This document shows positions 44,513-60,486 of a stretch of 64,000 nt of DNA, piece by piece. The stretch lies in the NCBI RefSeq assembly GCF_002797435.1, contig NZ_PGEN01000001.1, forward strand, positions 1,672,501 to 1,736,500, given 5' to 3'. Numbering within the stretch: the stretch's first letter is position 1; the number at the start of each line of letters is the position of its first letter. Origin of the DNA: Sphingomonas koreensis. GTDB taxonomy: Bacteria; Pseudomonadota; Alphaproteobacteria; Sphingomonadales; Sphingomonadaceae. The notes under the pieces are model-generated. The model was not told where the DNA came from, ran no database searches, and saw nothing but the letters and a program-made list of their open reading frames with translations. Made by a program: the position numbers and the translations under genes.

Positions 44513-47071
44513 TCAGCGCGCCGGTTCGACCCGCACCGTCCGGCTCGCGCGCTTCCCGTCGGCAGAGCGGCTGCGCACCTCGACCGCGCCCGCTACAGCC
44601 ACCGGTCCGCTATAGCGCGTCCAGCCGCCGCCGTTCGCGCGATATTCGATCGCGGTGCCCGGGAAGACGTTGTTCGCCTCCAGCTTGCCTCCGACGATCC
44701 GTGCGCCCGGAGGCGAGACGCGATAGGCGATGCCGGCGCGCTCGAGCAGCGGGAACTGCGCCGCGACGCGGCCGGCGAAGTTCCGCCATTCGGCGCCAAG
44801 CTTCGCCTGATCGACCCGCGGATCCTGCCACTGATAGCTCACCCCTGGCTGATAGGCCGGGGCCCAGGTCGCCGGCGTCCAGGCGCGCTCGGCCAGCGCG
44901 AGCAGGCGCGGGAACAGCATGTATTCGACATTGGCGTCGGTGCGGATCGTCTCGCTCCACAGCTGCGCCTGGATGCCGACGATACCGCGGCCCGGCTCGC
45001 GCACCGGCTTGTCCTCGATCGACTTCTCCTGCGCCTGGATGTTGCGCACCAGCGCCGCATTGGCGGGGAGGTTGTCGGTCATGAAGCCGAACACCTGATA
45101 GGGATCGACCCCGCGCGACGCCCAGTCATAGCCGCCCTCGTCCGGATGCGGCGCATAGGGCATGTCGAAATAGCCGAGATCGGGGATCGACAGCACCACG
45201 TTCCAGCCCCGGTTGAGCTGGTCGTGCGCCTCGCGGATCGCGCCGCTGTGCAGCACGCCCCAGATGTTGGTCTGGACGTTCTTCGGCATCCGGGCCGGAT
45301 CGGTATGGCCCATGCCGTCGCTCCACCCGCCGGTGCGGATACCCTTGGCCGCGACATTGGCGGTCACCTTCTCGATGAAGCGCGAGGTGAGCTTGGTCGC
45401 GTCCCCGCCATTCTCCGCGATCATCGTCGCGCACGCAGGCGACTTGACCCAGGCGCCCGCGGTCTCGTCGGCGCCGAGATGGAAGGTCTTGAGCGGTGCG
45501 CCCGCCTGGCGGTGCATCTCCGCCAGCGCATCCACCACCGTGTCCATGAAGCGATAGGTGGACGGCAGACAGACGTTCAGCGTGTTGTCGGTATAGTGCT
45601 GAACGCTGCTGTACTTGGTCGTGTCCGCCGGATCGATCAGGCGATATTCCGAAGCTTCGGCCTGCTTGCCCGCAGCGGCAAGACGGCGATAGCGTGCTTC
45701 CATCGCGGTCACCGCCGCGCGCGAGTGGCCTGGCGTGTCGATCGACGGAATCACCTCGATCCCGCGCGCCGCCGCTTCCTTGACGATCGTCACATAGTCG
45801 GCGGTGGTCAGATAGCCGTTGACGTCGCTGGTCCCGTCCGGCCCGGCGCCGAGCTGGGGCAGCAGGCAGACATTCTCCTCGGGATCATGGCAGCGCTTGC
45901 CGCCGATCTGCGCCAGTTCGGGCAGCGCCGGAATCTCGATGCGCCAGCCCTCGTCCTCGGCGAGATGGAGGTGCAGCTTGTTGAGCTTGAACGCCGCCAT
46001 GGCATCGACCAGCTTCAGGATCTCGGCGCGGTCGTGGAAGTTGCGGCCGACATCGAGATGCAGTCCGCGGAACCCGTAGCGCGGCGCATCCTCGACCCGT
46101 AGCGGCTTCATCATGCCCTTCTCGAACGCCGCCTGCTGCGCGAGCGAGCGCAGCGCATGGCTGGCGCCGACCGCATCGGCGGCGGTGACGGTGATGCCTG
46201 CCGGCTTGACGTCGAGCACATAGCCCTCCGCAGCCAGCTTCGCCGACGGATCGACGCGGACCGACAGCGGCAGCTTGCCGCCCTCCTTCACCCCGATCCG
46301 GGCGAGCGCCGCCAATGCCGGCGCCACCGAGTCCTGGCCGAGACCCGCAAGCGTCACCGCGACGCCCCCGCGCAGATCGACGGTGCCGGCCCCTTGAACC
46401 GCCAGCACCGGCTTGGGCAGCATCACCACGCCCGTCGCCGCGGGGGCGGTCCGTCCGGCCTGAAGATCGAAGGCGCGCTCGGCGGTGAGCCAGCGGGTGC
46501 GGTCAGCGCCGCCCTTGGTGGCGAGCTTCGCTTCATTGGTCATCGGCGCGACGAAGGGCAGCACTTCGAGCCCCGTTTCGGGATCGATCTTGGCGCGCGA
46601 CGCCGCGATCGTCCGCGCCTTGAGCCCGTCTGCCGTGAGATAGGCGTTAGGCATCGGGAATGCCTTGGAGAAGAACTTGCCCGTGCCCCAGAGCTTCACG
46701 ACATGCGTCGAGCCGGGCTTAAGCACCGCACCTGGCTTGAGCTTCAGCCGCTGAAGGTCGCCATTGATGAACTCCAGCTCGAAGATGTCGCTTTCGATCA
46801 TCGGCAGCTGGGTGGGGAAGCTGAAATAGAGCGACAGGCCCTTCCCCGGCACCCCGGCGGGCAGCGCCTGCGGGACGGTCAGCGTGATGGTCGACAGGAA
46901 GCAGGCCGGCGACTTCTCAGGGCAGGTGGGCTGATTGTCGACCACCTCGAACCGGTAGCCGAGTGACTCCGCAAGCGTATCGAGCGCGGCCTGCGCCGGC
47001 GCCTCCACGCGCGCCACGGCAGGCGCCGCAATCATCATAGCCGACAACAACGCCCAGCCCGCTTTACGCAT
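44513..47071 (-). CDS. Beta-N-acetylhexosaminidase (GH20, chitobiase type)
   Basis: This 852-residue exported enzyme releases GlcNAc from chito-oligosaccharides. Domains in order: signal peptide (about 1-21), CHB_HEX carbohydrate-binding domain (about 25-165), GH20b (about 215-320), the GH20 barrel from about 330 to 760 with the catalytic Asp-Glu pair at 535-536 (HLGADETAGAW), and a C-terminal CHB_HEX_C Ig-like domain (about 775-850). This is the full chitobiase layout. The ATG at 47071, with GGGAGAGAG upstream, is preferred to the preceding GTG. It diverges from the chitinase. Confidence 0.93.
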   Translation of the reverse strand: MRKAGWALLSAMMIAAPAVARVEAPAQAALDTLAESLGYRFEVVDNQPTCPEKSPACFLSTITLTVPQALPAGVPGKGLSLYFSFPTQLPMIESDIFELEFINGDLQRLKLKPGAVLKPGSTHVVKLWGTGKFFSKAFPMPNAYLTADGLKARTIAASRAKIDPETGLEVLPFVAPMTNEAKLATKGGADRTRWLTAERAFDLQAGRTAPAATGVVMLPKPVLAVQGAGTVDLRGGVAVTLAGLGQDSVAPALAALARIGVKEGGKLPLSVRVDPSAKLAAEGYVLDVKPAGITVTAADAVGASHALRSLAQQAAFEKGMMKPLRVEDAPRYGFRGLHLDVGRNFHDRAEILKLVDAMAAFKLNKLHLHLAEDEGWRIEIPALPELAQIGGKRCHDPEENVCLLPQLGAGPDGTSDVNGYLTTADYVTIVKEAAARGIEVIPSIDTPGHSRAAVTAMEARYRRLAAAGKQAEASEYRLIDPADTTKYSSVQHYTDNTLNVCLPSTYRFMDTVVDALAEMHRQAGAPLKTFHLGADETAGAWVKSPACATMIAENGGDATKLTSRFIEKVTANVAAKGIRTGGWSDGMGHTDPARMPKNVQTNIWGVLHSGAIREAHDQLNRGWNVVLSIPDLGYFDMPYAPHPDEGGYDWASRGVDPYQVFGFMTDNLPANAALVRNIQAQEKSIEDKPVREPGRGIVGIQAQLWSETIRTDANVEYMLFPRLLALAERAWTPATWAPAYQPGVSYQWQDPRVDQAKLGAEWRNFAGRVAAQFPLLERAGIAYRVSPPGARIVGGKLEANNVFPGTAIEYRANGGGWTRYSGPVAVAGAVEVRSRSADGKRASRTVRVEPAR

Positions 47072-47086
47072 CACTCTCTCCCGCTC

Positions 47087-47108: not shown

Positions 47109-47171
47109 ATGCTCATTACGCAGGGTCAACGCTCTTTCGAAGAGCGGCATTTCAAGGGGGATGTCAGGGGC

Positions 47172-48230
47172 ATGAGACATATCACGCTGGCACAATGGCT
47201 GTGCGGCTTGGCAATTGGTTTCATATTAGTCCTATCGCCGCGCCCGGCCGCCGCATCGGCGAAGCCGGTCACGGTCGGCTACGTGGCCATCTTCAAAGGG
47301 CTGGACCTCTCGATCGACCGGACGCACCTGCCGAGCTTCACCCATTTCAACCTGTCTTTCGCCAATCCCGATGCGGACGGCGTCTTCGTTCGCGACGGCG
47401 CCATGACCTGCATGATCGGCGCATTCGGATCGCGTGTGACGGCCGATTCGTTGAAAGCCGGCGTGGCCCGGCTCAAGACAAGCGGCGCGAAGGTGCTGAT
47501 CTCGGTCGCCGGCGGCATCATCCCGGATTGTTCGGGCGACTGGAAGGCGCTGCTCGCCCCCGACAGGCGCGAGGCGACCGCGGCGGCATTGGTCGCGCTG
47601 GCCGACCAACTCGGCCTGGACGGGGTCGATATCGATCTCGAAGGGGAACTGCTCACCGCCATCGACCGCGCGGGCAACTACGTCCCCTTCATCGAAACGC
47701 TGTCCAAGGCGCTCAAGGCGCGCGGCAAGCTGCTCACCTGCGCCACCGGATCCTATGAGGGCGGGATGATCCCGGTCGGATCGATCCGCTATTTCGATCT
47801 GGTCAACGTCATGTCCTATGACGCGATCGGGCCGTTCTGGGGGCCGGCAGGCGCAGAGCATTCGCCGCTGGCGATGGCAGAGCGCGACCTGGACCTCTGG
47901 CTCGCCCGCGGCGTCGCTCCGGAGCGGCTGGTGCTGGGGGTTCCTTTCTATGGCTATGGCTTTGGCGGGGAAAAGGCCAATTGGTCCTATCGTGACCTCG
48001 TCGCAGCCCAGCCCGATGCCGCTAAGGCCGATGTCGTCGGCAAGGCGTGCGCGGGCTGCCGTTATGTCACCCACAACGGCCCGGCGACGATCGAGGCCAA
48101 GGCAAAACTCGCCCGGGCCAGGGCCGGTGGGGTCATGGTTTGGGAAGTTTCACAGGATTCGCCGGACCATGCGCTGACTCGCGCCATCCATCGCGGGCTT
48201 TCGGCGCCCATTGTGCGCGCTAACGATTGA
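47172..48230 (+). CDS. GH18 chitinase-type glycosidase
   Basis: This 352-residue TIM-barrel protein has a signal peptide (about 1-29, basic N-terminus MRHITLAQW, ending near AAAS). The GH18 signature DGVDIDLE occupies 150-157, so E157 is the acid/base and D155 its partner; the second family motif KVLISVAGG is at 107-115, and MSYDAIGPFWGP and YGYGFGG follow. There is no separate chitin-binding domain, and an endo-N-acetylglucosaminidase cannot be excluded. I chose the ATG at 47172 with AGGGG just upstream. The NagR-type regulator follows 60 bases later. Confidence 0.88.
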   Translation: MRHITLAQWLCGLAIGFILVLSPRPAAASAKPVTVGYVAIFKGLDLSIDRTHLPSFTHFNLSFANPDADGVFVRDGAMTCMIGAFGSRVTADSLKAGVARLKTSGAKVLISVAGGIIPDCSGDWKALLAPDRREATAAALVALADQLGLDGVDIDLEGELLTAIDRAGNYVPFIETLSKALKARGKLLTCATGSYEGGMIPVGSIRYFDLVNVMSYDAIGPFWGPAGAEHSPLAMAERDLDLWLARGVAPERLVLGVPFYGYGFGGEKANWSYRDLVAAQPDAAKADVVGKACAGCRYVTHNGPATIEAKAKLARARAGGVMVWEVSQDSPDHALTRAIHRGLSAPIVRAND

Positions 48231-48290: not shown

Positions 48291-49049
48291 GTGAAGGTGG
48301 AGCATCAAGCCTTGTCGCTGATCGAACGTGTTGGTCCCCTCCAGAAGGAAGACCCGACCCCACTCTACCTCCAGCTGCAGAAGATCCTGCGCGACGCGAT
48401 CGAGGGACAGGTGGTCAAGGCCGAAGAGGCAATCCCGACCGAACGCGACCTCGCCGAAGAGTTCGACGTCTCGCGCATCACCGTGCGCAAGGCGATCGAC
48501 GGGCTGGTCGCGGACGGCATCGTCGCGCGGCGGCGCGGCGCGGGCACCTTCGTCACCCGGCCGCGCGTCGAGAAGAGCTTCTCCAAGCTCACCTCCTTCT
48601 CGGAGGACATGGTTTCGCGCGGACGGCGGCCGCACAGCAAATGGGTGAGCAAGACGGCAGGCGCGGTGACGCCTGAGGAGGCGCTGTCGCTGGGGCTCTC
48701 GCCCGGCTCGCTGGTCTATCGCTTCCACCGCATCCGCTATGCCGACGATACGTCGATGGCGCTCGAATATGCGACGATCCCGGCCTATTGCCTCCCCTCG
48801 GTCGAAACGGTCGGAGCGTCGCTCTACGAAGCGCTCGAGGCGGCGGGGCACCTCCCCGTGCGCGCACTCCAGCGGCTGCGCGCCGTGGCCTTTACCGAGG
48901 AACAGGCAGAGGTTCTGGGCGTCGAGCCCGGCGCGCCCGGGCTGTTCATCGAGCGCCGCGGCTTCCTGTCCGACGGACGCACCGCCGAATTCACCCAGAG
49001 CTACTATCGCGGCGATGCCTATGACGTGGTCGCCGAACTGAACGGCTGA
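48291..49049 (+). CDS. nagR: GntR/HutC-type regulator of GlcNAc use (NagR-like)
   Basis: This 252-residue protein has a GntR winged helix (about 20-88: LYLQLQKILRDAIEGQ, IPTERDLAEEFDVSRITVRKAIDGLV) and a C-terminal UTRA effector domain (about 108-245, with VYRFHRIRYADD and FIERRGFLSDGRTAEFTQSYYRGDAYD). HutC-type regulators of this build sense GlcNAc-6-P or GlcN-6-P in nag loci. The start is a GTG at 48291. It lies amid the chitin genes and converges on the halogenase-like operon. Likely targets are the elements at 48268, 56953-56986 and 58183-58211. Confidence 0.85.
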   Translation: MKVEHQALSLIERVGPLQKEDPTPLYLQLQKILRDAIEGQVVKAEEAIPTERDLAEEFDVSRITVRKAIDGLVADGIVARRRGAGTFVTRPRVEKSFSKLTSFSEDMVSRGRRPHSKWVSKTAGAVTPEEALSLGLSPGSLVYRFHRIRYADDTSMALEYATIPAYCLPSVETVGASLYEALEAAGHLPVRALQRLRAVAFTEEQAEVLGVEPGAPGLFIERRGFLSDGRTAEFTQSYYRGDAYDVVAELNG

Positions 49050-49084
49050 CGCGTCCCTGGCCGGTCGCGCCCCGGTGAACGGGG

Positions 49085-50569
49085 TTAGGCCGACAGCCGC
49101 CGCAGGAATTCGACGTGGGGAGGCAGCTCCGCGAGTTGCTCGGCGACCCGCCCCCTGAGCACCGCCAGCCGCGCAGTGAGCTCGGCCGAAGACAGGCCAT
49201 CGGCGATCGGGTGCCAGCTGCGCGGCCATACGCCCTGCCCCGTCATCACCCAGTACCAGTTCGTCGGGCCGAACAGGTCGCCCGGCTCGAACAGGATGTT
49301 GCCGGTGGCGCGGAACGCCTCGATCCGCTCGGCGAGCGTGTCCGGCACTCCGGTGGCGGCGACATCGCGCCAGAAAGGCGTGTCGTCGCGCCCGGCCAAT
49401 GCGTAGTGCGCGATCACGAAATCCCGGATCGTCCGGTATTCATGCAGCGATTCGCGGTTGAAGCGCGCAACGACATTGGGATCGATCCCGTCGCGGGGCA
49501 GCAGCGCGAGCAGACGGATGATCGTCGTCTGAATGAGATGAATCGAGGTCGATTCGAGCGGTTCGAGAAATCCGCCCGCCAGCCCGATGGCGACGCAGTT
49601 GCGGTTCCAGATTTTCCGGCGATGCCCGGCGGTGAAGCGGAGGAAATTGGGATCCGCCTGCGCCGGGCCGGGCAAGCGTTCGCTCAGCAGCCGTGCCGCT
49701 TCGGCATGCGGCAGATGCGCGCTCGAATAGACATAGCCGTTGCCGTCACGATGCTGGAGCGGAATGCGCCACTGCCAGCCCGCCTCGCGCGCGGTCGAGC
49801 GGGTGAAGGGCAGCGGGTCGCCGGCGTTCGCCGCGGGCACGGCCACGGCACTGTCGCAGGGCAGCCAGTGATTCCAGCTTTCATAGCCGGTCTCCAGCGC
49901 GCCTTCGATCAGCAAGCCGCGGAACCCCGAGCAATCGATAAACAGGTCGCCTTCGATGCTGCGGCCGTCATCGAGCGCCAGCGCGTCGATATAGCCGTTT
50001 TCAGGATCGAGGCGGACATGGACGACCTTGCCCTCGACCCGAACCACGCCCGACGCCTCGGCACGGCCGCGCAGGAAACGCGCGTAGAGCGAGGCATCGA
50101 AATGCACCGCATGATGGACAGGCCCCGTGCGGGTCATCCGCGCGAAGCGGCCTTCGCGTAAGGCCATCGCCTCGAGATGATACTCGCTGTGGTCCCGAGG
50201 CCCCACCTCCGCGACATGGCGCAGCCAGAAATGATGGAAGTGAATCCCCGACATCTCGACGCCGAAGAAGCCGAAGGGATGGAAATAGCGGTGACCGGCA
50301 CCGCCCCAACCTTCGAACTCGATGCCAAGCTTGATCGAGCCATTGGTCTCGCGAAGGAACTCGTCCGGGTCGATCCGCAGATAACGATTGAAGTCGAGGA
50401 TCGGCGGCACCGTCGCCTCACCCACCCCCACCGTGCCGATCGCCTCGGATTCGACCAGCGTGATGCTGTGGCTCTGCCCCGCCAGCGCACGGCCGAGCGC
50501 AGCCGCCGTCATCCAGCCTGCGCTGCCACCGCCGACGATGACGATCCGGCGAACCGGCCGCGCGCTCAA
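49085..50569 (-). CDS. Tryptophan-halogenase-like flavoprotein, copy 3
   Basis: This 494-residue FAD-dependent protein is of the tryptophan 7-halogenase superfamily. It has GGGSAG (13-18) for FAD, GEATVP (50-55), the halogenase lysine K80 (SIKLGIEF), the WxWxIP motif at 265-270 and the catalytic glutamate E339 (FLEPLESTSI), so it has all parts needed to make and use a hypohalous acid. I set the start at TTG 50569, overlapping the upstream stop as TTGA, because it begins directly at the FAD-binding strand (ARPVRRIVIVGGG). It is the last gene of the TonB receptor operon. The natural substrate is unknown. Confidence 0.85.
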   Translation of the reverse strand: MSARPVRRIVIVGGGSAGWMTAAALGRALAGQSHSITLVESEAIGTVGVGEATVPPILDFNRYLRIDPDEFLRETNGSIKLGIEFEGWGGAGHRYFHPFGFFGVEMSGIHFHHFWLRHVAEVGPRDHSEYHLEAMALREGRFARMTRTGPVHHAVHFDASLYARFLRGRAEASGVVRVEGKVVHVRLDPENGYIDALALDDGRSIEGDLFIDCSGFRGLLIEGALETGYESWNHWLPCDSAVAVPAANAGDPLPFTRSTAREAGWQWRIPLQHRDGNGYVYSSAHLPHAEAARLLSERLPGPAQADPNFLRFTAGHRRKIWNRNCVAIGLAGGFLEPLESTSIHLIQTTIIRLLALLPRDGIDPNVVARFNRESLHEYRTIRDFVIAHYALAGRDDTPFWRDVAATGVPDTLAERIEAFRATGNILFEPGDLFGPTNWYWVMTGQGVWPRSWHPIADGLSSAELTARLAVLRGRVAEQLAELPPHVEFLRRLSA

Positions 50570-52041
50570 CGCCCGCCGCTCCGGATCCGCGCGAGCGCCT
50601 CCGCATGCGTCTCCATGCTGCGAACCTCGGCGGCGATCGCGCGCAGCTGGCGCTGAAATTCCGCCATCAGCGCCTGATCCTCGACCAGCAGCGCCTGCGG
50701 ATCGAAGCTGTGCGGAACCACGCCATGGCCGGTCATGCACAAGGCCCAGCCATCCTCGACATGCGCCTCGTAGTTGAAATGCGCGAACATGCCGCGCGCG
50801 GCGAACAGGTCAATCTTGGCCGCCAGCTCGGCGGAGACCGGAGCAGCGCGCGCGGCATCCCAGAAAGGCTCGCCATGGCGTCGGTTGAGACGGAAATGCT
50901 GCGCAGCAAAGTCACGCACGCGCGCATATGAGCCTGTCAGCTCCTCATTGTAGATGTCCGCCTCAGGCATCGCATCGCGATCGATCGGCCAGAGCAGCAC
51001 GAGTTGGGCAACGGCGAGCTGGAGCAGCAGCAGTTCCGCCCCGTCGAGCCGCGGCGCATCGCTCGCCGCGCGCCCGATCGCGACGCAATTCGCGAACCAG
51101 GGGCGCGGCCGTAGCGTTGCGGAGAACGCTTCCGACCCGCCCGTTTCGACAGCACGGCCCGCAGCCCGCTCCATGACCATACGCGCCGCGTCGTCAGGCA
51201 TCTGTCGGCTGTCATATGCGATTTCGACCGCCAGCCGGTCGCTCAGCGGGATCAGCGTCACCCACCCCGCTTCATGCGCGGCGACACGACTGTAAAGCGG
51301 CAGCGGATCGAGCCGCGCGGCGCTACCGCAGAGAATCCGGTCGCAAAGGCCATTTCCTTCCTCCGCACCGTGCGGATCGAGCGACCGGGTCAGCGCGCCA
51401 TCAGCGTCGACGAACAGGTCCGCCGTCACCGCTGCGCCGTCCGCGAGCACGATCCGGTCCACTCTGCCATCCGCAGCGTGCGGCTGTGCGCCCCCGCCTT
51501 GCACGATCGTCACAGCCGCGCCCTTGCACGCCGCACGCAGCAGTTCGGTATAGCCCGCGGCATCCAGATGCCAGCCATGCTTGACCGCCTGCCGCGTTGC
51601 CGGATCGCGCGCCTCGCCCGCCCGTCCCTGTTTCGCGGCGGCGGCGGCAAGGCAGAAGTCCTCCAGCGCGACGCGCAACCCGGCCTGACGCGCGCGTGTC
51701 CAGTGCTGGACCAGCGGCAACGACGCAAAAGGGGTTCCCGCATCGCCATAAGCATGGAGAAACGCATCGTCTCCGCCCGACCAGCCGGCGAATTGCTGGC
51801 CCATGTTGAGCGTCGCCGATGCCGTTTCGATCAACGCCGCGTCGGTGATCCCGAGCAGGCGATGGAACGCCGCAAGGTCGGGCACGGCGACCAGTGCGGC
51901 ATGCGGCGGCGGCGCTTCCCCGGTATCGACCCAGGTCACCTGCGTGCCCAGCCGGCCATAGGCCCGGGCGACCGCAAGCGCCGCCATCGGTGCCGCGACG
52001 CCCCCGCCATAGACCGCTACCCGTTCGACCGGACCGCTCAC
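50566..52041 (-). CDS. Halogenase-like flavoprotein, copy 2, lacking catalytic residues
   Basis: This 491-residue paralogue is diverged: the FAD loop reads GGGVAA, the GEATVP stretch is replaced, the halogenase lysine is Asn79 (ATLNMGQQF), WxWxIP is changed to GWVTLIPL, and the glutamate position aligns with Asp in APRLDGAEL. It keeps length, the overall order of segments and the C-terminal part (SYARVRDFAAQHFRLN, MTGHGVVPHSFDPQ). The start is a GTG at 52041 overlapping the upstream stop (GTGA). The frame is intact, so it is not a decayed gene; a non-halogenating or partner role is likely. Confidence 0.8.
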   Translation of the reverse strand: MSGPVERVAVYGGGVAAPMAALAVARAYGRLGTQVTWVDTGEAPPPHAALVAVPDLAAFHRLLGITDAALIETASATLNMGQQFAGWSGGDDAFLHAYGDAGTPFASLPLVQHWTRARQAGLRVALEDFCLAAAAAKQGRAGEARDPATRQAVKHGWHLDAAGYTELLRAACKGAAVTIVQGGGAQPHAADGRVDRIVLADGAAVTADLFVDADGALTRSLDPHGAEEGNGLCDRILCGSAARLDPLPLYSRVAAHEAGWVTLIPLSDRLAVEIAYDSRQMPDDAARMVMERAAGRAVETGGSEAFSATLRPRPWFANCVAIGRAASDAPRLDGAELLLLQLAVAQLVLLWPIDRDAMPEADIYNEELTGSYARVRDFAAQHFRLNRRHGEPFWDAARAAPVSAELAAKIDLFAARGMFAHFNYEAHVEDGWALCMTGHGVVPHSFDPQALLVEDQALMAEFQRQLRAIAAEVRSMETHAEALARIRSGGR

Positions 52042-53549
52042 GGCGCAGGCGCCGGGCAGTAGCGGGCGATGAAGTCGGCATGCGACGGTGCCGACCCGGC
52101 ACCGCGCGCGATCGTCGATGCGAGCATTTCGAGACGTTGTGCGAGAGCCTCGGCCGGCAGCACATCGGCGAGCCGGTCCGCCGCGAGCGGCTCGATCCCT
52201 TGCCCGACGAATACCGCCTGCCAGCTCGGCGGGCCGAACAGCCCGTCCCGATAGGCCTGGACATGACCGCGATGGCGGAAGCGATCGATCTTGTCCTGAA
52301 GCGTGTCGGGCAAGTCGACCGCAGTGACATGCGCCCATAGCGGCGCATCGGCCTCGTTCGCGATATAGTGGAGGATCAGGAAGTCGCGGATCCGGTCATA
52401 TTCGACATCCATCACGCGATTGAATTCGGCGGGCAGCGCCGGATCGATCCCCTCCGTCGACGGCAGCAGCGTCAGCATGTGCATGATCGCCATCTGGACG
52501 AGGTAGATGCTGGTCGACTCAAGCGGCTCGAGGAATCCGCCCGCCAACCCCATACCGATGCAATTGCGCGACCAGGCGAGGCGGCGCTTGCCCGCCTTGA
52601 AGCGCAACACGCGCGGCTCGGCCAATGCCTCGCCGTCGAGATTGGCGAGCAGGGTCGCGGCGGCCTCGTCGTCCGAGACATGCGCGCTCGAATAGACATA
52701 GCCGTTGCCGGTGCGATGCTGCAGCGGGATGCGCCACTGCCAGCCGGCCTTGCGCCGCGTGGAGCGGGTATAGGGGGTGAAATCCTGCGAGCGCGCGCAC
52801 GGCACCGCCTGCGCGCTGTCGCAGGGCAGCCAGTGCGACCAGTCTTCCAGTTCGACACCCAGCATCGATCCGAGCAGCAGCGAACGGAAGCCGGAGCAGT
52901 CGATGAAGAAGTCCCCCGCGACGGGTTCGCCCGAGGCGAGCGTCACGGCGGCGATCGCGCCGCTTCCGCCATCGCGCTCGACATCGACGATCCGCCCCTC
53001 GACGCGTTCGATCCCGCGCGCCTCAGCCCAGCCGCGCAGGTAACGGGCGTAGAGAAAGGCATCGAGGTGATAGGCATAGGCAAAGGCATTGCGAACGTCG
53101 TTCGGATCGCCATTGGGCAGCATGAAGCGGTTCTGCCAGGCGGCAACGATCGGGAAGCAATAGTCGTCGAGCCGCGACGCAATGCCTGAGCGCCGCGCGC
53201 GGATCCAGTAGCTGAAGAAGTCCGCCTCCCCCACCGGCCGGCCATAGGTGCCGAACGGATGGATGTAGCGATGCCCTTCATGCCCCCAGTTCACGAACTC
53301 GATGCCGAGCTTGAAGCTCGCCTGGGTCGCCTTCATGAACTCGACCTCGTCGAGCCCGAGAAAGTCGTTGAAGTCCTTCATCTGCGGCAGCGTCGCCTCG
53401 CCGACGCCGACGGTGCCGATCTCTTCGGATTCGACCAGCCGCACCCGCACCCCCGTCGGCACCAGCTTCGCCGCGCACGCCGCTGCGCACATCCAGCCGG
53501 CGGTCCCCCCGCCGACAATCACCAGTTCGAACGGTCGCCCCATCGTCAT
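52038..53549 (-). CDS. Tryptophan-halogenase-like flavoprotein, copy 1
   Basis: This 503-residue protein has GGGTAG (13-18), GEATLP (50-55), K80 (ASFKLGIEF), WQWRIP (270-275) and E344 (FLEPLESTSI), matching the working halogenases in every key residue. Relatives encoded next to TonB receptors (BrvH, and the Xanthomonas enzymes) are reported to brominate free indole in vitro, while their in vivo role is open. ATGs at 53549 and 53543 are both possible; AAGG lies upstream. It is the first of three flavoprotein genes after the receptor, 59 bases from its stop. Confidence 0.88.
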   Translation of the reverse strand: MTMGRPFELVIVGGGTAGWMCAAACAAKLVPTGVRVRLVESEEIGTVGVGEATLPQMKDFNDFLGLDEVEFMKATQASFKLGIEFVNWGHEGHRYIHPFGTYGRPVGEADFFSYWIRARRSGIASRLDDYCFPIVAAWQNRFMLPNGDPNDVRNAFAYAYHLDAFLYARYLRGWAEARGIERVEGRIVDVERDGGSGAIAAVTLASGEPVAGDFFIDCSGFRSLLLGSMLGVELEDWSHWLPCDSAQAVPCARSQDFTPYTRSTRRKAGWQWRIPLQHRTGNGYVYSSAHVSDDEAAATLLANLDGEALAEPRVLRFKAGKRRLAWSRNCIGMGLAGGFLEPLESTSIYLVQMAIMHMLTLLPSTEGIDPALPAEFNRVMDVEYDRIRDFLILHYIANEADAPLWAHVTAVDLPDTLQDKIDRFRHRGHVQAYRDGLFGPPSWQAVFVGQGIEPLAADRLADVLPAEALAQRLEMLASTIARGAGSAPSHADFIARYCPAPAP

Positions 53550-53608
53550 CAACCTTACCGCACAAGGTTGCCGGCGCCAGTCCCCCCGAACCGGCGCCGG
53601 CGCTTAGA

Positions 53609-56600
53609 TCAGAAGGTCAGCCGCGCACCGATCTGGAAGCGGCGATCATTCTTGAACCAGGCATTGTCCTTGAGCAGTCCGTCGTTGTTCACCTGCTGCT
53701 TGAGCACGGTGTCGGTCCCCAGCAGGTTGGTACCCTCGACGATGAACTCGATATTGCTGGTCGCCCGGAAGCGGATCGACGCGTCCATATAGCCGGCGGC
53801 CTCCTGCCAGACCGGCAAGGCGACGCAGCAGTCGATCGCGGTAACCAGGAACTTCGAGCGCCAGTTGTACGCGAGACGCGCCGACAATTTGCCCTTCTCG
53901 TACATGCCGACGATGTTGAAGGCATGTTCGGAGACACCCTCCAGCGCCTTCGCCTTCACCGCCGTAGTGCTATACTGGAGACCGCCGCCCGCGATGCCGC
54001 CCGCGGTCTCATTGGTCAGCGCAACGGTCTCGATCCCGTCATTCTTCACATAGGTGTAGTTGGCCTGCACCCCGAGCCCGTCGAACGGCGCGGGCAGGAA
54101 ATCGAAGAAGGTCTGGAATGCTGCTTCAGCGCCATAGATGGCCGCGCCTTCTCCGTTGACCGGACCGGTAACCCGGATCGGCTCGGTGACACCATTGTTG
54201 GTCACCGAAAGATCGAACGACCCCTGCTGAATATAATCGTAAAACTTCTTGTAGAAGCCGGTCAGCGTCAGCGATCCGGCCGACGACATATAATATTCGA
54301 ACGTCAGGTCGAACTGGTCCGCCGTGATCGGCTTCAACCTCGGATTGCCCATCTGACCGGTATAATCCCAGTCATAGGCAATGGGCCTTCCATCGGCGTC
54401 GCGCGTCACCCTCGTATTATTGAAATCGTTGACATTGGGCGAAACCCGGCTGACCGTCAGGAAGTTGCGGAGCAAGCCGAAATCGGGTCGTGACATCGCC
54501 CGCGAATAGGCGAAGCGCGAGACCAGCTTATCCGTCAGATCGAACTTAATGTTGAAGCTCGGCAATGCGTGGAAATGGTTGACATCGGTCGTGCCCGCCA
54601 CTGTCGCACCATTGTTGAACGCGATCTCGGACGCTCCGATGACGCAGCCGGCGGTTGCCGTGGGCCGCCCCGTATCTCCGTCGGTTCCCGGGGTACAGAT
54701 CCGGTCAGCCGCAGTGAATGGGTTGGCGAAGGTCGCTGCACCCTGCGTTGCGTTATTGGTCCAGACCAGGCGAACGCCGACATTGCCCGAGACCCGGACA
54801 CCCCCAATCGTCAGACCGTCGCCGCCGAACTTGGCCATCGCATAAGCTGCGACCGTGCGTTCGCTGACCTTATGGATCTCGCTCGGCAGATAGCAGCCGA
54901 ACTTGTCCTTGACCGTTTCGCCCGCGCGATAGCCGGCGTTCGAACAGACCGGAAAATAGTCACCGACACCGATCGCAGGCCGACCCAGCGCCTTGGCCAG
55001 ATCCTCGCGATTCGCCAGCTTGTCCATGTTGAAGAACACGAACGAGTTGTGAGTCAGCTGATTGCCGGCAAAGAAATCGCTGCTGAAACTGTGGGTTGCG
55101 TAGTTGCCCGTCGGATAGACCGGCTTGTCCAGGTTGAAATAGGACGCCTGGGTATTGGTCCAGGTGTTCGAGATATTCGCCCAGTTATACGCGCCCCAGC
55201 GCACGGTCTGATCGCGATCCGCATAACGCGCGCCGACCTTGATCGCATCGAGCCAGCCCGAATCCACATCATATTCCGCGTCCATGCGGAACGCGAATTC
55301 CTGGCCATCACTGTCTTCGGTGTGATCGGTGATCGCGTAGTAATGATAGTTGTTCGGATTGACGAGGCCGCCGGGTGACAGGTTGATATTGGTGGCAACC
55401 GTCGGCTTGAACTCCAGCCGGGGATATTTTCCGGTCAGATCTACGAACGTGTCGGCATAGCTTCGCGTCGTTACCGACGCATTGTAGTTGCCCACACTGG
55501 CATCGACATACTGGCCGTCGACCGTCACGCGCAGCCGATCCGTGACATCCCAACGGAAATTCAGGCCGAAGTCCTGAGTAACTTGCTTGTTACGCAGCGC
55601 GTTGGACTGCGTATCGACCGACGGCGCACGCCGCAACGTCGCGCCGGCACACCCGGTCCAACCATAGCAACGGTTGTAGAACGGCTGCCCAGCGGAGTTC
55701 AAACCAAGCCCAAGATACGCGTTGTCTGGGATAGTTGCAGTTGGATCGCCCAAATAGGCGCGTGGCGGAGACCACCAACCGCTCAGGAAGTCACCATCGT
55801 CATCGAACTTGAACGATGTTCCATCGAGCGGAAAGACCTCGGCAAGATCGTCCGGGGTGGGCGGCGGGCCAATCGTAGAATCGGACGGCCGACCGAAAAG
55901 ATCAAGTACGTTGGAGAATACCGAATATTCACGCCAGCTATTGTTATACTGCGACCTGTTATACTGGCCAGTCAACAGCATCGACTCATCGTTCGACTTC
56001 CACTGGAATGCAGCCGATACGCCGTAGCGCTTTCGGTCATACTCATTCTCGCGAAGATAGATGCCGCTCGGGATATATTTAAGATATTGCGTGCCGGCCG
56101 GGTCCGTCGGCTTCAGTTCGCCAAACGCATTCCGGAAGACGCCCATGCGGCCAAACTGCACGCCCTGACTCGCGGTAATCGCGTGGGCATAAGCGCCGTT
56201 CACCATCAAACCGATCTCACCGATCCCGGTTTCCCAGCGATCGGAGATGATGCCCGAAACCTCCGGCGACGATTTCTTGGCGATGTCGCCATAAGTGTTC
56301 TTGATCGAGAGTGAGATCAGCCGCCCCTTGCTGTCGAACGGCAGACGCGTGCGCAGATTGACCGTGCCGGCGATACCGCCCTCGATCAGGTCGGCGGTCT
56401 GGTTCTTGTAGGTATCGATGCCGCCGAGCAGTTCGGGCGAGATGTCCTGCCAGCTCAATCCGCGCGAGGAATTGGCGCTGAACGTGTCGCGGCCATTGAA
56501 TTCCGAACGAACCTGGTTGAGGCCGCGGATGATGACGCCCGACGGCTCGGCGGAGAAGTGCGAGGTATCGTCGGTGCCGGAAAAGCGGTTGACGGTGATG

Positions 56601-56902
56601 CCGGGCACGCGCTGCAGCGCTTCGGCCACCGACTTGTCCGGGAACGAGCCGATATCCTCAGCCGTGATCGAATCGACCACCGTATCGGCGTTACGCTTGC
56701 GGTTCTGCGCCGATTCAAGGTTCCGGCGGGCGCCGGTGATGACCACGTCCTCGGCCGCGGCCTCTTCGCTCGCCGCGGTCTGGACGGCGGCGTCCTGCGC
56801 CGAGGCGGGCATCGCGATCGCGCTGGCGAGCGCGGTGACGCAGATCCCCTGAAACAGATTATGGCGGCGAGCCCCAATCGCCTTGACCGTCGATCCGATC
56901 AT
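53609..56902 (-). CDS. TonB-dependent receptor (chitin/GlcNAc locus)
   Basis: This 1097-residue outer-membrane receptor has a signal peptide (ends near MPASAQ, about residue 36), a TonB-box-like VVITGARRN, a plug with NRKRNADTVVDSITAEDIGSFPDKSVAEALQRVPGI, typical of Xanthomonas/Caulobacter receptors, and a large barrel ending in FQIGARLTF. Its place beside nag and chitinase genes points to uptake of GlcNAc or chito-oligosaccharides. I chose the ATG at 56902 (AAGGGAA 8 bases upstream) over the frame opening at 56962. Operator-like palindromes lie 51-84 bases upstream of it. Confidence 0.9.
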   Translation of the reverse strand: MIGSTVKAIGARRHNLFQGICVTALASAIAMPASAQDAAVQTAASEEAAAEDVVITGARRNLESAQNRKRNADTVVDSITAEDIGSFPDKSVAEALQRVPGITVNRFSGTDDTSHFSAEPSGVIIRGLNQVRSEFNGRDTFSANSSRGLSWQDISPELLGGIDTYKNQTADLIEGGIAGTVNLRTRLPFDSKGRLISLSIKNTYGDIAKKSSPEVSGIISDRWETGIGEIGLMVNGAYAHAITASQGVQFGRMGVFRNAFGELKPTDPAGTQYLKYIPSGIYLRENEYDRKRYGVSAAFQWKSNDESMLLTGQYNRSQYNNSWREYSVFSNVLDLFGRPSDSTIGPPPTPDDLAEVFPLDGTSFKFDDDGDFLSGWWSPPRAYLGDPTATIPDNAYLGLGLNSAGQPFYNRCYGWTGCAGATLRRAPSVDTQSNALRNKQVTQDFGLNFRWDVTDRLRVTVDGQYVDASVGNYNASVTTRSYADTFVDLTGKYPRLEFKPTVATNINLSPGGLVNPNNYHYYAITDHTEDSDGQEFAFRMDAEYDVDSGWLDAIKVGARYADRDQTVRWGAYNWANISNTWTNTQASYFNLDKPVYPTGNYATHSFSSDFFAGNQLTHNSFVFFNMDKLANREDLAKALGRPAIGVGDYFPVCSNAGYRAGETVKDKFGCYLPSEIHKVSERTVAAYAMAKFGGDGLTIGGVRVSGNVGVRLVWTNNATQGAATFANPFTAADRICTPGTDGDTGRPTATAGCVIGASEIAFNNGATVAGTTDVNHFHALPSFNIKFDLTDKLVSRFAYSRAMSRPDFGLLRNFLTVSRVSPNVNDFNNTRVTRDADGRPIAYDWDYTGQMGNPRLKPITADQFDLTFEYYMSSAGSLTLTGFYKKFYDYIQQGSFDLSVTNNGVTEPIRVTGPVNGEGAAIYGAEAAFQTFFDFLPAPFDGLGVQANYTYVKNDGIETVALTNETAGGIAGGGLQYSTTAVKAKALEGVSEHAFNIVGMYEKGKLSARLAYNWRSKFLVTAIDCCVALPVWQEAAGYMDASIRFRATSNIEFIVEGTNLLGTDTVLKQQVNNDGLLKDNAWFKNDRRFQIGARLTF

Positions 56903-56952
56903 TCCCCGATTCCCTTCCCTAATACCCCCGGATCGTTCGATCGATCCTTTAT

Positions 56953-56986
56953 ATGAGACCAATTGCGCAATTGGACTATTACCAAT
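56953..56986. promoter_or_regulatory. Overlapping nag-type palindromes between receptor and nagX
   Basis: CCAATTGCGCAATTGG (56959-56974) is a perfect 16-bp palindrome. ATTGGACTATTACCAAT (56970-56986) overlaps it and has ATTGG/CCAAT arms like GntR nag sites. ATGAGACCAAT at 56953-56963 recurs exactly at 58183-58193. The cluster lies in the gap shared by the divergent receptor and nagX genes. Confidence 0.6.
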
Positions 56987-57078
56987 AGACTACAAATTAC
57001 GCGGTCTGTCCATTGCAAATTTATGGCAGCGTAATGAAATTGCTCCGCGGCATTGGAAGACAATAGGGGGGAGATGCG

Positions 57079-58161
57079 ATGCGCCTGATTTCGCTCGATG
57101 TATTGCGCGGCCTGACCGTGGCGGGGATGATCCTCGTCAACGCGGCGGCCGGGATGAAATATGGCGCCGAGGCGGATGTCGCGCCGATCCTGCTGCACAA
57201 ATCCTGGGAGGGGCTGACGCTGGCGGATCTGGTGTTCCCGGCGTTCCTGACGATGGTCGGTATCGCGATCCCCTTCTCGCTGCGGCAGCGCGCGGCAACC
57301 GGTGCGCCGACCGGCCCGATCCTGAGCCGCACCGGGCGGCTGATCCTGCTCGGCTTCATCCTCTCCAACCTCTACTGGTTCGCCGATTTCGGCGACCGCG
57401 ACTGGCGGCTGTTCGGCGTGCTCCAGCGAATCGGCCTGGTCTATGGCGCGTGCGCACTGCTCTTCCTGTTCGCCGGGCCGCGGGTGCGCATGGCGCTGAT
57501 CGCGGTGCTGCTGATCGGATACTGGCCGCTGGCCCTGCTTCCCGCCCTTGACGGCCTGCCGAACGACATCTGGCAGCGCGGGCATAACTTCGTCGCATCG
57601 GTCGATCGCGTGCTGCTGGGCGACCACCTCTATGTGAAGGGGCCCGAAGGCTATGACCCCGAGGGCATTCTCGGCACCCTGCCCGCAATCGCACAGGGGC
57701 TGATCGGCATTGCGATCGGCGAGCTGCTGCTCAAGCGCGAGGGCCAGCGTACCCGCCTGCTCCTCGCGGCCGGCGCCGCCATGCTCGCGGCGGGTATCGC
57801 CTGGAGCTTCGCCTTCCCGATCGTCAAGGACATCTGGTCCAGCTCCTTCGTGCTGGTGACGGCCGGCATCACGGTGCTCACGCTCGCGGTGCTGCACCAC
57901 GTCCTCGACCGCGAAGGGCGCGCACCCGGCATCGCCGCGACCGCGATGCTGGCCTTCGGCGCCAATGCCATCGCCGCCTACACACTGCACCAGGTCACCT
58001 CGGGCGTCGTCACCTGGGACCTGCTTCTGCTCCCCTTCCACGCCACACGCGCGGCGATCGGCGACCCCATCGCCTCGCTATTCCCGGTCCTGATCTACAT
58101 CGTGCTGATCTGGGCCGCGATGGAGTGGCTGCGGCGCAAGGGCTGGATCATCAAAATCTGA
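57079..58161 (+). CDS. nagX: NagX-like membrane acyltransferase family protein (DUF5009)
   Basis: This 360-residue inner-membrane protein has about ten helices and the signature RLISLDVLRGLTVAGMILVN (2-21) of the heparan-alpha-glucosaminide acetyltransferase-like family, with HKSWEGLTLADLVFPAF and RTGRLILLGFILSN following. NagX proteins recur in GlcNAc loci, where roles in GlcNAc transport or acetylation have been suggested but not settled. GGGGGGAG precedes the ATG. It diverges from the receptor and is followed by the deaminase gene after 98 bases that contain their own operator-like element. Confidence 0.85.
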   Translation: MRLISLDVLRGLTVAGMILVNAAAGMKYGAEADVAPILLHKSWEGLTLADLVFPAFLTMVGIAIPFSLRQRAATGAPTGPILSRTGRLILLGFILSNLYWFADFGDRDWRLFGVLQRIGLVYGACALLFLFAGPRVRMALIAVLLIGYWPLALLPALDGLPNDIWQRGHNFVASVDRVLLGDHLYVKGPEGYDPEGILGTLPAIAQGLIGIAIGELLLKREGQRTRLLLAAGAAMLAAGIAWSFAFPIVKDIWSSSFVLVTAGITVLTLAVLHHVLDREGRAPGIAATAMLAFGANAIAAYTLHQVTSGVVTWDLLLLPFHATRAAIGDPIASLFPVLIYIVLIWAAMEWLRRKGWIIKI

Positions 58162-58182
58162 TCGGCTCGAACATACATCTTG

Positions 58183-58211
58183 ATGAGACCAATATAACCT
58201 ATATAGTACCA
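58183..58211. promoter_or_regulatory. Operator-like element before the deaminase gene
   Basis: ATGAGACCAAT (58183-58193) is identical to the element before the receptor. ATAGTACCA (58203-58211) is the reverse complement of the TGGTACTAT before nagR. It is a candidate NagR site controlling the deaminase-nagA-PTS operon. Confidence 0.5.
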
Positions 58212-58259
58212 ACTTGAACACCGGCCCGACCGGCCGGGGAATTGTGGAGAGATGCTGGA

Positions 58260-59303
58260 ATGGTGCCGAACGCGGCCGGAGCGAGTTTGGGAACGCTGAT
58301 GGAGCGTGAGGCGGCCGAAGCCGGCGCCGCGGTTTCGCGGATGCTGGCGGCGAACCGCGACGCCATAGAACGGGTTGCGGCAAGGCTGCGCGCGTCGCCT
58401 CCGGCGGTGGTCGTGACCTGTGCGCGCGGTTCCTCTGACCATGCGGCGACCTATGCCAAATATCTCATCGAGACGCTGACCGGCGTGCCGACCGCGTCGG
58501 CGGCGCTGTCGGTCGCGTCGCTCTACGACGCGCCGGTGGCGCCCGGGAACGGACTGTGTCTTGCCATCTCGCAGTCGGGAAAGAGTCCGGACCTGCTCGC
58601 GACGGTGGAGCATCAACGCAAGGCAGGCGCCTTCGTCGTGGCGATGGTCAACGCCGAGGATTCGCCGCTCGCCGCGCTCGCCGACATCGTCATCCCGCTC
58701 AAGGCCGGCCCCGAGCGGTCGGTCGCTGCGACCAAATCCTATATCTGCTCGCTCGCGGCGATCGCCGCGCTTGTCGCCGCATGGGCGCAGGACGAAGCGC
58801 TTGAGACGGCGGTCGCCGATCTGCCTGCACAGCTCGAGCGCGCATTCGCGCTCGACTGGTCCGCGGCGGTGACAGCGCTTACCGGCGCGTCGGGCCTGTT
58901 CGTGCTGGGTCGCGGCTATGGCTATGGCATCGCGCAGGAAGCGGCGCTCAAGTTCAAGGAGACCTGCGCGCTCCACGCCGAGAGTTTCAGCGCCGCCGAA
59001 GTGCGTCACGGGCCGATGGCGATCGTCGGCGAAGCATTTCATGTCCTAGCCTTCGCCAGCAGCGACCGCGCGGGCGAGAGCGTGCGCGAAACCGTCGCCG
59101 AATTCCGCAGCCGCGGCGCCGAGGTGCTGCTTGCCGATCCCGCGGCACGCCAGGCCGGCCTTCCGGCGATCGCGGCGCATCCGGCGATCGAGCCGATCCT
59201 GATCGTCCAGAGCTTCTACAAAATGGCCAATGCGCTGGCGCTGGCCCGCGGCTGCGACCCCGATTCGCCGCCCCATCTCAACAAGGTCACCGAAACGCTA
59301 TGA
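58260..59303 (+). CDS. nagB2: SIS-domain glucosamine-6-phosphate deaminase (NagB-II type)
   Basis: This 347-residue protein has two SIS domains and no glutamine amidotransferase domain: TCARGSSDHAATYAKYLIE and AISQSGKSPDLLAT in the first, VLGRGYGYGIAQEAALKFKETCALHAES and VRHGPMAIV in the second. The GlmS-like isomerase fold without the N-terminal domain is the mark of NagB-II, which turns GlcN-6-P into fructose-6-P and ammonia. I chose the ATG at 58260 with GGAG 10 bases upstream over a TTG at 58242. It overlaps nagA in ATGA. Confidence 0.88.
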   Translation: MVPNAAGASLGTLMEREAAEAGAAVSRMLAANRDAIERVAARLRASPPAVVVTCARGSSDHAATYAKYLIETLTGVPTASAALSVASLYDAPVAPGNGLCLAISQSGKSPDLLATVEHQRKAGAFVVAMVNAEDSPLAALADIVIPLKAGPERSVAATKSYICSLAAIAALVAAWAQDEALETAVADLPAQLERAFALDWSAAVTALTGASGLFVLGRGYGYGIAQEAALKFKETCALHAESFSAAEVRHGPMAIVGEAFHVLAFASSDRAGESVRETVAEFRSRGAEVLLADPAARQAGLPAIAAHPAIEPILIVQSFYKMANALALARGCDPDSPPHLNKVTETL

Positions 59304-60460
59304 GGATTCGACTGGAGAACGGCCGGATCGTCACCCCGCAGGGGGTGCTCGACGGTACGGACGTGACCGTTGCCGACGGGACGATCATTGCGCTCACGCC
59401 GGCGAGCGGCAGCGGCGTCGAGCGTAAGATCGATCTGGGCGGCGGCTGGCTGCTGCCCGGCTTCATCGATACGCAGGTGAATGGCGGCGGCGGTGTGCTG
59501 TTCAACGACCAGGCCGATGTCGATGCAATCGCGGCGATCGGCGCTGCGCATGCGCGCTTCGGCACCACCGCCTTCCTGCCGACGCTGATCAGCGACACGC
59601 CCGACCAGATCGCGGCGGCGCTCGACGCGGTCGACGCAGCGATCGAACAAGGCGTTCCGGGCGTGGTTGGCATCCATGTCGAAGGACCCTTCATCAACGA
59701 GGTGAAGCGCGGCATTCACGAGGCGCGGCGCATCCGCCGGCTCGATGCGGATACGCTGGCGCTGTTTACCGCGCCGCGCCGCGGCCGGGTGATGCTGACG
59801 CTCGCGCCCGAACTGTGCGACACCGACGATGTCCGCACCCTGGTGAAGCATGGCGTGATCGTCAGCGCCGGCCACACCAACGCGACCTATGACGAGATGA
59901 TGGCGGCGATCGGCGCGGGGCTCACCGGCTTCACCCACCTGTTCAACGCCATGTCCCCGCTGCACCATCGCAACCCCGGCGCCGTCGGCGCGGCGTTCGA
60001 TTCCGAGAGCTGGTGCGGGATGATCGTCGATGACGCGCATCTGCATCCGGCGGTGGTTCGCCTGGCGGTGCGTGCCAAGGGGATCGAGCGGCTGATGCTC
60101 GTCACCGATGCGATGCCCAGCGTCGGCACCGGCGACACCGAGTTCATGCTGCAGGGCAAGCGGATCATGGTGCGCAACGGCGTCTGCCTGTTCGAGGACG
60201 GCACGCTGGCCGGCACGCATCTCGACATGGCCTCCGCGCTGCGCAACACCGTCGAGGTGACCGGGCTGAGCGTGCCGGACGTGGCGGTGATGGCGAGTAC
60301 GACGCCCGCGCATTTCCTGTCGCTCGACCGGTATGGCGCGCTGGCGCCGGGCAAGCGCGCCGACTGGGTGTGGCTGGACAAGGATCTCCAGCCGCGCGGA
60401 ACCTGGATCGGCGGGGAACCAGTGGCTGACGCAGAAGAATTCGCCCGCGCGGCGCAATAG
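59300..60460 (+). CDS. nagA: N-acetylglucosamine-6-phosphate deacetylase
   Basis: This 386-residue amidohydrolase removes acetate from GlcNAc-6-P in the cytosol. Motifs: LPGFIDTQVNGGGGVLF (about 52-68), GIHVEGPFINEVKRGIHE with the metal-binding glutamate, SAGHTNATYDEM, FTHLFNAMSPLHHRNPGAVG, and VTDAMPSVG with the catalytic aspartate. Length and order are normal. It lies between the deaminase (ATGA overlap) and the PTS protein, 26 bases ahead of the latter. Confidence 0.95.
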   Translation: MRIRLENGRIVTPQGVLDGTDVTVADGTIIALTPASGSGVERKIDLGGGWLLPGFIDTQVNGGGGVLFNDQADVDAIAAIGAAHARFGTTAFLPTLISDTPDQIAAALDAVDAAIEQGVPGVVGIHVEGPFINEVKRGIHEARRIRRLDADTLALFTAPRRGRVMLTLAPELCDTDDVRTLVKHGVIVSAGHTNATYDEMMAAIGAGLTGFTHLFNAMSPLHHRNPGAVGAAFDSESWCGMIVDDAHLHPAVVRLAVRAKGIERLMLVTDAMPSVGTGDTEFMLQGKRIMVRNGVCLFEDGTLAGTHLDMASALRNTVEVTGLSVPDVAVMASTTPAHFLSLDRYGALAPGKRADWVWLDKDLQPRGTWIGGEPVADAEEFARAAQ

Positions 60461-60486
60461 AACAATAGAACAGAGCCGGGGATAGG

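Follow-up and report, generated by a model that had tools for sequence, protein, structure and literature searches.

A paired intact and degenerate halogenase encoded beside TonB-dependent receptors, viewed from a chitin/N-acetylglucosamine locus of Sphingomonas koreensis

We have analyzed a stretch of 64,000 nucleotides from Sphingomonas koreensis (contig NZ_PGEN01000001.1, positions 1,672,501 to 1,736,500 of the forward strand; the whole stretch is referred to below as the window) and, within it, a minus-strand operon that encodes a TonB-dependent receptor and three proteins of the halogenase family PF04820, FDH-A, FDH-B and FDH-C. A sequence-only reading of this DNA had described three halogenase-like flavoproteins; all three do belong to PF04820, but the middle one lacks the catalytic residues and, judged from the alignment, the trio consists of two intact halogenases around one degenerate protein rather than three equivalent enzymes. 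As far as sequence can tell, the unit that recurs in other genomes is the pair formed by the degenerate protein, denoted B*, and the intact halogenase directly in front of it, denoted A, while FDH-C, cupin_8 and sugar genes come and go. The explanation that we favor, which may well be correct and may equally well be wrong, is that A and B* make up a halogenase of two subunits, one of them non-catalytic, operon-encoded alongside the TonB receptor. The genes of the operon are as follows.

53609..56902, minus strand: TonB-dependent receptor, operon gene 1; TIGR01782 group, NCBIfam match of 607 bits
52038..53552, minus strand: FDH-A, intact halogenase of the A clade; PF04820, 590 bits, with GxGxxG, Lys, WxWxIP and Glu kept
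50566..52041, minus strand: FDH-B (B*), degenerate halogenase; PF04820, 266 bits (cut-off 21)
49085..50569, minus strand: FDH-C, second intact halogenase, TTG start; PF04820, 594 bits, motifs intact

The degenerate member of the operon

Transcription runs from 56902 to 49085 in the order receptor, FDH-A, FDH-B, FDH-C, and the continuous operon with 4-base overlaps among its last three genes that had been proposed is borne out by the letters themselves, with GTGA (52041-52038) joining FDH-A to FDH-B and TTGA (50569-50566) joining FDH-B to FDH-C. The receptor and FDH-A do not overlap, being separated by about 56-66 nucleotides depending on whether FDH-A starts at TTG 53552, ATG 53549 or ATG 53543.

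FDH-A and FDH-C match PF04820 and carry the motifs of flavin-dependent halogenases, namely GxGxxG, WxWxIP and the catalytic Lys and Glu. At the positions equivalent to Lys79 and Glu346 of PrnA (numbering checked on the alignment) both have Lys and Glu, and FDH-B has Asn and Asp. In FDH-B the GxGxxG position reads GGGVAA, the WxWxIP position reads WVTLIP, and there is a Leu where the GVGEAT stretch holds the Glu of the flavin adenine dinucleotide (FAD) loop, Glu49 of PrnA, which is named the FAD sensor in the text of PMC7336383. We infer from these substitutions that FDH-B is inactive. The same changes run through what we call the window B family, FDH-B together with 120 listed homologues (of 126 at E values up to 1e-10, with 7998 candidates scored). 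Among these 121 proteins the Lys position is never Lys (Asn 74, Ser 18, Ala 8, Thr 7, Gly 4, Arg 4, Asp 2, His 1, Val 1, gap 2), and the Glu346 position is Asp in 103, Ala in 15, Glu and Ser in one each and a gap in one. At the same time 63 columns of the family reach 97% conservation or more, 23 with a residue differing from that of FDH-A, so that FDH-B appears to be constrained, but differently.

Ratios of nonsynonymous to synonymous substitution (dN/dS) among three genomes, calculated by NG86 and to be taken as rough values since dS is about 0.7-1.3, are 0.21-0.22 for FDH-B, 0.12-0.15 for FDH-A and FDH-C, and 0.19-0.26 for NagB. They point to purifying selection on FDH-B, and together with its wide conservation they led us to reject a decayed pseudogene. 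An AlphaFold2 model of FDH-B built from 44 sequences has a mean predicted local distance difference test score of 93 and matches Xcc4156 (6y1w) over its full length with a template modeling score of 0.92 at 29% identity; FDH-B is thus predicted to keep the halogenase fold.

The A-B* pair across genomes

Our early loci were largely found through the receptor or the FDH-B of the window and are therefore not a neutral sample; in them it was seen time and again that a halogenase array includes one degenerate gene, placed immediately after an intact gene. Two further samples were not chosen for B*. The first covers 39 family genomes, with every PF04820 gene included except 8 weak matches (E above 1e-5). 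A PF04820 match is present in 28 of these genomes (over the cut-off in 26) and an A-B* array in seven (G000, G010, G014, G016, G023, G029 and G032), and no lone intact gene among those included falls in the A clade. For the second sample an alignment of A proteins only was compared with 84,980 species genomes; of the best 80 of 586 relatives, 34 loci have A-B*, two of which (L241 and L316) were already known, and the remaining 46 are without an A-clade gene.

The resulting tree set, drawn from Alpha- and Gammaproteobacteria, holds 326 family proteins, or 330 when four Protein Data Bank (PDB) chains are included, and its 264 intact members divide into 62 A and 202 others. In the 330-protein tree the 62 B* proteins make up one split (62/0/0, support 100), as do the 62 intact genes directly upstream of B* (62/0/0, support 98); without the PDB chains the supports are 100 and 99, respectively, and a quick IQ-TREE of 121 proteins gives the same grouping for 28 pairs. 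A B* gene never follows any of the other 202 intact halogenases in this set. Glu49, Lys79 and Glu346 are all kept in 264/264 intact members and the full WxWxIP in 60/62 A and 185/202 other intact genes; no B* has both Lys and Glu346, and none has WxWxIP. A candidate B* start lies no more than 20 nucleotides from the A stop in all 62 cases, with a 4-base overlap possible in 45. Even four reduced B* proteins of 344-374 amino acids (L143 at 14775-15812, L159, L168 and L303), uncut by contig ends and with a large part of the central region missing, are still encoded directly behind A. The triad follows the receptor clade discussed below and, above all, the A-B* pair.

A number of genes were set aside before these counts were made: seven halogenase genes of L241 and L316, which are the same genomes as L110 and L168, as well as L280_130 (cut by a contig end) and L284_247 (of intact type and probably complete), and, earlier, L165_3608 (broken frame) and three fragments of L227. 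L147_18669 is of intact type, its earlier label as degenerate having arisen only because the locus cuts it; L132, L253, L259 and L267 are cut or at contig ends, and G025:C341 (L228) contributes no counted protein. In L227 (G007) and L165 (G010), outside the counts, halogenase genes are broken into fragments.

Named hosts of A-B* include Sphingopyxis, Sphingomonas, Caulobacter, Asticcacaulis, Aquisalinus, Oceanicaulis, Cellvibrio, Gilvimarinus, Paraglaciecola, Glaciecola, Aliiglaciecola and a metagenome-assembled genome of the Steroidobacteraceae. At one locus, L295, an A-B*-C array occurs together with a TonB receptor under the name Arthrobacter sp. TPD3018; as such an array is unexpected in an actinomycete the entry is probably mislabeled or contaminated.

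A pairing in which neither member is seen with another partner, which is coupled in translation and which persists whatever genes surround it, is the trace that would be expected of a hetero-dimer with one dead protomer. In the two-subunit flavin-dependent halogenase that we favor FDH-A would be the catalytic subunit and FDH-B the non-catalytic partner with a halogenase fold, the two proteins would bind each other, and B* would probably replace the second protomer of the halogenase dimer known from crystals, stabilizing A or presenting a substrate; FDH-C would be a second, optional halogenase. One and the same dimer is found in every crystal of the tryptophan halogenases, and that of Xcc4156 closely resembles it, as described in the text of PMC7336383.

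Several observations weigh against this explanation. Among the 62 B* proteins GxGxxG is kept in 15, the FAD-loop Glu in 5, the Lys in 5 and the catalytic Glu in 6, and these retained motifs, along with the mildness of the most frequent change in the window B family, from Glu to Asp, mean that certain B* proteins may bind flavin or be active. The long B* branches and the use of FastTree for the large trees make it unsafe to say where B* belongs with respect to the intact groups. Tandem intact genes without B* exist (L147, L270 and L287), so that halogenase arrays in general need no partner, and tight operon linkage alone could account for the co-inheritance of A and B*. The correlation of A and B distances (Mantel r of 0.82, 0/2000 permutations) is not used here as evidence of binding because linked genes correlate anyway. 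Finally, size-exclusion chromatography and dynamic light scattering suggest that Xcc4156 may be monomeric in solution (PMC7336383).

Alternatively, B* might be an enzyme of a different activity, either a neofunctionalized flavoprotein or a flavin-independent one, that shares a target molecule with A and works on it at an earlier or later step, with no complex between them. The conserved columns of the window B family, including the 23 that are unlike A, speak for such an enzyme, as do the 15 B* proteins with GxGxxG; however, the motif is gone in the other 47, the four reduced B* proteins are without much of the protein middle, and we recognized no common new catalytic motif, though no systematic search for one was made across all 62. 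We consider a separate activity of B* unlikely, if far from negligible.

Receptors, neighboring genes and the nag setting

A receptor gene lies beside 57 of the 62 A-B* arrays, on the same strand in 35 and on the opposite strand in 22, in keeping with the earlier remark that halogenase-like genes adjoin TonB receptors; PF04820 genes in this position are common in the genomes searched. Three of the five arrays in which none was seen (L253, L259 and L267) are on short or cut contigs. In a set of 143 receptors all 53 assigned to A-B* arrays belong to one clade of 66 (support 99), and of its other 13 members 11 adjoin other halogenase genes and 2 none. Other neighbors vary. Counted with a simple gene caller, so that the numbers for C, cupin_8, nag and SapC genes are lower bounds, an intact gene follows directly behind B* in at least 42 of the 62 arrays, cupin_8 genes are present at no fewer than 19 and nag genes at 5 or more, and SapC was called in none. 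The cupin_8 genes may be part of the same pathway as A-B*. By eye, the loci further appear to contain sugar-related genes, among them those for sugar kinases, isomerases, major facilitator superfamily porters and glycoside hydrolases.

The receptor itself was considered as a candidate substrate for halogenation. Several tryptophans are enriched in A-B* receptors, and 343, 594, 601 and 1034 of the window receptor (53609-56902) are conserved in the A-B* receptor clade. We did not use this signal, since receptors of the same clade without A-B* (L133, L135 and L147) share most of these tryptophans and the signal is one of clade membership.

The source genome has 8 PF04820 genes, 5 of which (L009-L013) are outside the operon. 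All of the latter but L011 are near a TonB receptor; one locus (L012) has SapC-like and cupin_8 genes and another GH13-like genes. In this genome 14 receptors exceed the TIGR01782 cut-off, and 5 of these 14 are those near halogenase genes. As a separate observation, there is a second intact subfamily (L149-L152, L154 and L160-L164), scoring about 380-440 bits to PF04820 with Lys and Glu kept and EPLEA replacing EPLES, that occurs together with a normal halogenase in several receptor loci, such as at both ends of GH13-like sugar loci.

The operon of the window is set among the following features.

43504-44502, directly behind the GH20 gene: cupin_8/JmjC-like protein (Pfam)
44513..47074, minus strand: GH20 chitobiase-like protein (PF00728)
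47109..48230, plus strand: GH18 chitinase-like protein (PF00704)
48291..49049, plus strand: GntR/UTRA regulator, NagQ-type (PF00392 and PF07702)
56903..57078, no strand: divergent intergenic region between receptor and nagX, aligned over 5 genomes, with a conserved block near 56960-57000
57079..62979, plus strand: nagX, nagB-II, nagA and EIIA-HPr-EI, divergent from the operon (Pfam/NCBIfam)

The chitin and N-acetylglucosamine (GlcNAc) genes reported to flank the operon are indeed recognized by Pfam and NCBIfam, with the NagX-like and NagB-II-like matches scoring below the NCBIfam cut-offs. The GH20, GH18, regulator and cupin_8/JmjC-like genes are on the side opposite nagX, nagB, nagA and the phosphotransferase system (PTS) fusion gene. 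A regulator gene is present where NagR had been named, but it is of the GntR/UTRA type, that is NagQ-type in the naming of PMC5343134. Within the operon itself a strong G+C hairpin is predicted in the spacer between receptor and FDH-A (53553-53608), and hairpins are predicted in the corresponding spacers of L109, L110, L239 and L240 despite their differing sequence; they could possibly be a transcript-processing element that sets the receptor above the enzyme level. An Rfam scan of 40000-64000 gave no family reaching its gathering score, and a promoter scan of 48900-57200 no sigma-70-like site.

The gene order from GH20 to the nag genes is common to the window and to L109 (G434), L110 (G373; the same locus as L241), L239 (Sphingopyxis sp. 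JAI108, where the locus stops before nagA) and L240 (Sphingopyxis sp. LC363), and its presence in four further genomes indicates that the arrangement is not due to chance. In all five genomes the region between receptor and nagX includes a strongly conserved block of about AGACCAATTGCG...TTGGACTATTACCAATAGACTACAAAT, whose core has one exact match in the window against a chance mean of 0.46 matches at up to 2 mismatches. The block is a candidate site for the GntR/UTRA regulator; NagQ sites are described as tandem repeats in the text of PMC5343134. Such a conserved block in a divergent region makes co-regulation of the operon with the nag genes plausible, and this copy would then be induced along with them through the shared intergenic region.

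Conservation of the triad at nag loci, the check named in the sequence-only reading, holds for the closest of them and not for nag loci generally. Six of the loci that we fetched contain nagX together with nagA, nagB or PTS genes; two (L109 and L110) have the triad, and the 20-kb stretches of the other four (L111, L116, L117 and L127) have no halogenase. Among 20 fetched loci with nagX homologues the triad is found in 2 and a single intact halogenase in 3 (L112, L113 and L120), with none called in 15, several of which are distant homologues without nag genes. As the gene caller misses genes (nagX of L114, for example) such absences are lower-grade evidence.

It had also been suggested that the triad serves growth on chitin or GlcNAc, by modifying a surface molecule or by making a defence compound that chitin induces. 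The order kept in five genomes with the whole nag/chitin set and the conserved divergent block are in its favor. Set against them, only 5 of the 62 A-B* arrays are beside nag genes and the four nag loci just listed do without a halogenase, which led us to reject a nag-specific function as the general role; from the genomic distribution the nag setting of A-B* appears incidental. We regard a role specific to chitin or GlcNAc as improbable, with the possibility that it represents a local use of a general module.

Substrates and relation to known halogenases

Among halogenases of solved structure, BrvH (Brevundimonas, 6frl), Xcc4156 (Xanthomonas) and 9luq (Pseudoalteromonas) are the closest to A, B* and C, none of them falling within the A or B* clade. 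The first two, whose active sites are open, are active on free indole but fail to act on tryptophan, and were suggested by their authors to act on peptides (PMC7336383, PMC5945002). Together with the pairing and the crystal dimer discussed above, this leads us to favor a two-subunit halogenase with a large substrate. As proposed for BrvH and Xcc4156, the substrate of A-B* would be a peptide or protein. Alternatively A, B* and C could make a halogenated small molecule, such as an indole-type signal or antibiotic, that the receptor secretes or imports, with B* in a substrate-binding or regulatory role rather than as a subunit. Bromination of free indole and its derivatives by both relatives (PMC7336383) would fit, yet no biosynthesis gene, nonribosomal peptide and polyketide synthases included, is found among 13 window proteins scanned with Pfam, just as the earlier reading had it, and a small-molecule product is in our opinion quite improbable. 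That B* is a decaying duplicate hitch-hiking in the operon is very improbable and largely refuted, for although B* differs between loci more than A (mean pairwise difference of 0.71 vs 0.47) it forms one clade across two classes, has a dN/dS of about 0.21, and is lost from 0/62 A in the sample.

A bolder form of the two-subunit explanation, and one that we think somewhat more apt to fail than to hold, is that A-B* is a heteromeric halogenase in which an obligate pseudo-halogenase recruits a macromolecule, a protein or peptide belonging either to the TonB uptake machinery or to the cell surface, and that it operates with various sugar-uptake systems in Alpha- and Gammaproteobacteria. Were it true that one clade needs a degenerate partner, enzymes of that clade expressed singly could show weak or misleading activity, and searches for substrates should use both the A and B* proteins. 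The A-B* pair also provides an easy way to mark out a distinct system from sequence. In the open-licence PMC literature we found no report of a conserved degenerate halogenase partner, and the term TonB is absent from the main texts of PMC7336383, PMC5945002 and PMC8269204. Term searches within PMC8269204, PMC1790865, PMC11337851, PMC5943477, PMC7142613 and PMC4285296 likewise turned up nothing relevant. Family records, where named, mostly read tryptophan 7-halogenase or tryptophan halogenase, a naming that is probably wrong; for BrvH and three Xanthomonas halogenases, PMC7336383 describes the natural substrates as unknown.

How, then, does the system compare with those already known? FDH-A and FDH-C share with BrvH, Xcc4156 and 9luq in the alignment a Ser after the catalytic Glu-Ser-Thr, where most halogenases have Gly, an exception noted in PMC7336383. 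They are closer to the BrvH/Xcc4156 group than to PrnA, RebH and Thal, which have the fold in common with the trio and whose Lys79/Glu346 and WxWxIP recur in FDH-A and FDH-C, not in B*. In the available text of PMC7336383 and PMC5945002 no degenerate partner is described for BrvH, Xcc4156 or 9luq; brvH does have a second halogenase gene as its neighbor, at 42.7% identity (PMC5945002). Sets of TonB receptor, SapC, cupin_8 and halogenase genes likewise link PF04820 to a receptor, and the source genome has one (L012, whose SapC-like gene is labeled as such from its sequence); they differ from the A-B* arrays, where SapC is seen at 0/62 and cupin_8 at 19/62 or more. QhpG is an enzyme with the halogenase fold that acts on tryptophan in a protein or peptide, and its model has only weak similarity to FDH-A and FDH-C (26 bits against a cut-off of 240). 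MibH, too, has this fold and acts on peptide or protein tryptophan (PMC7336383, PMC5945002). We recognized no peptide precursor beside the genes, and what A-B* would have in common with QhpG and MibH is the idea of a large substrate.

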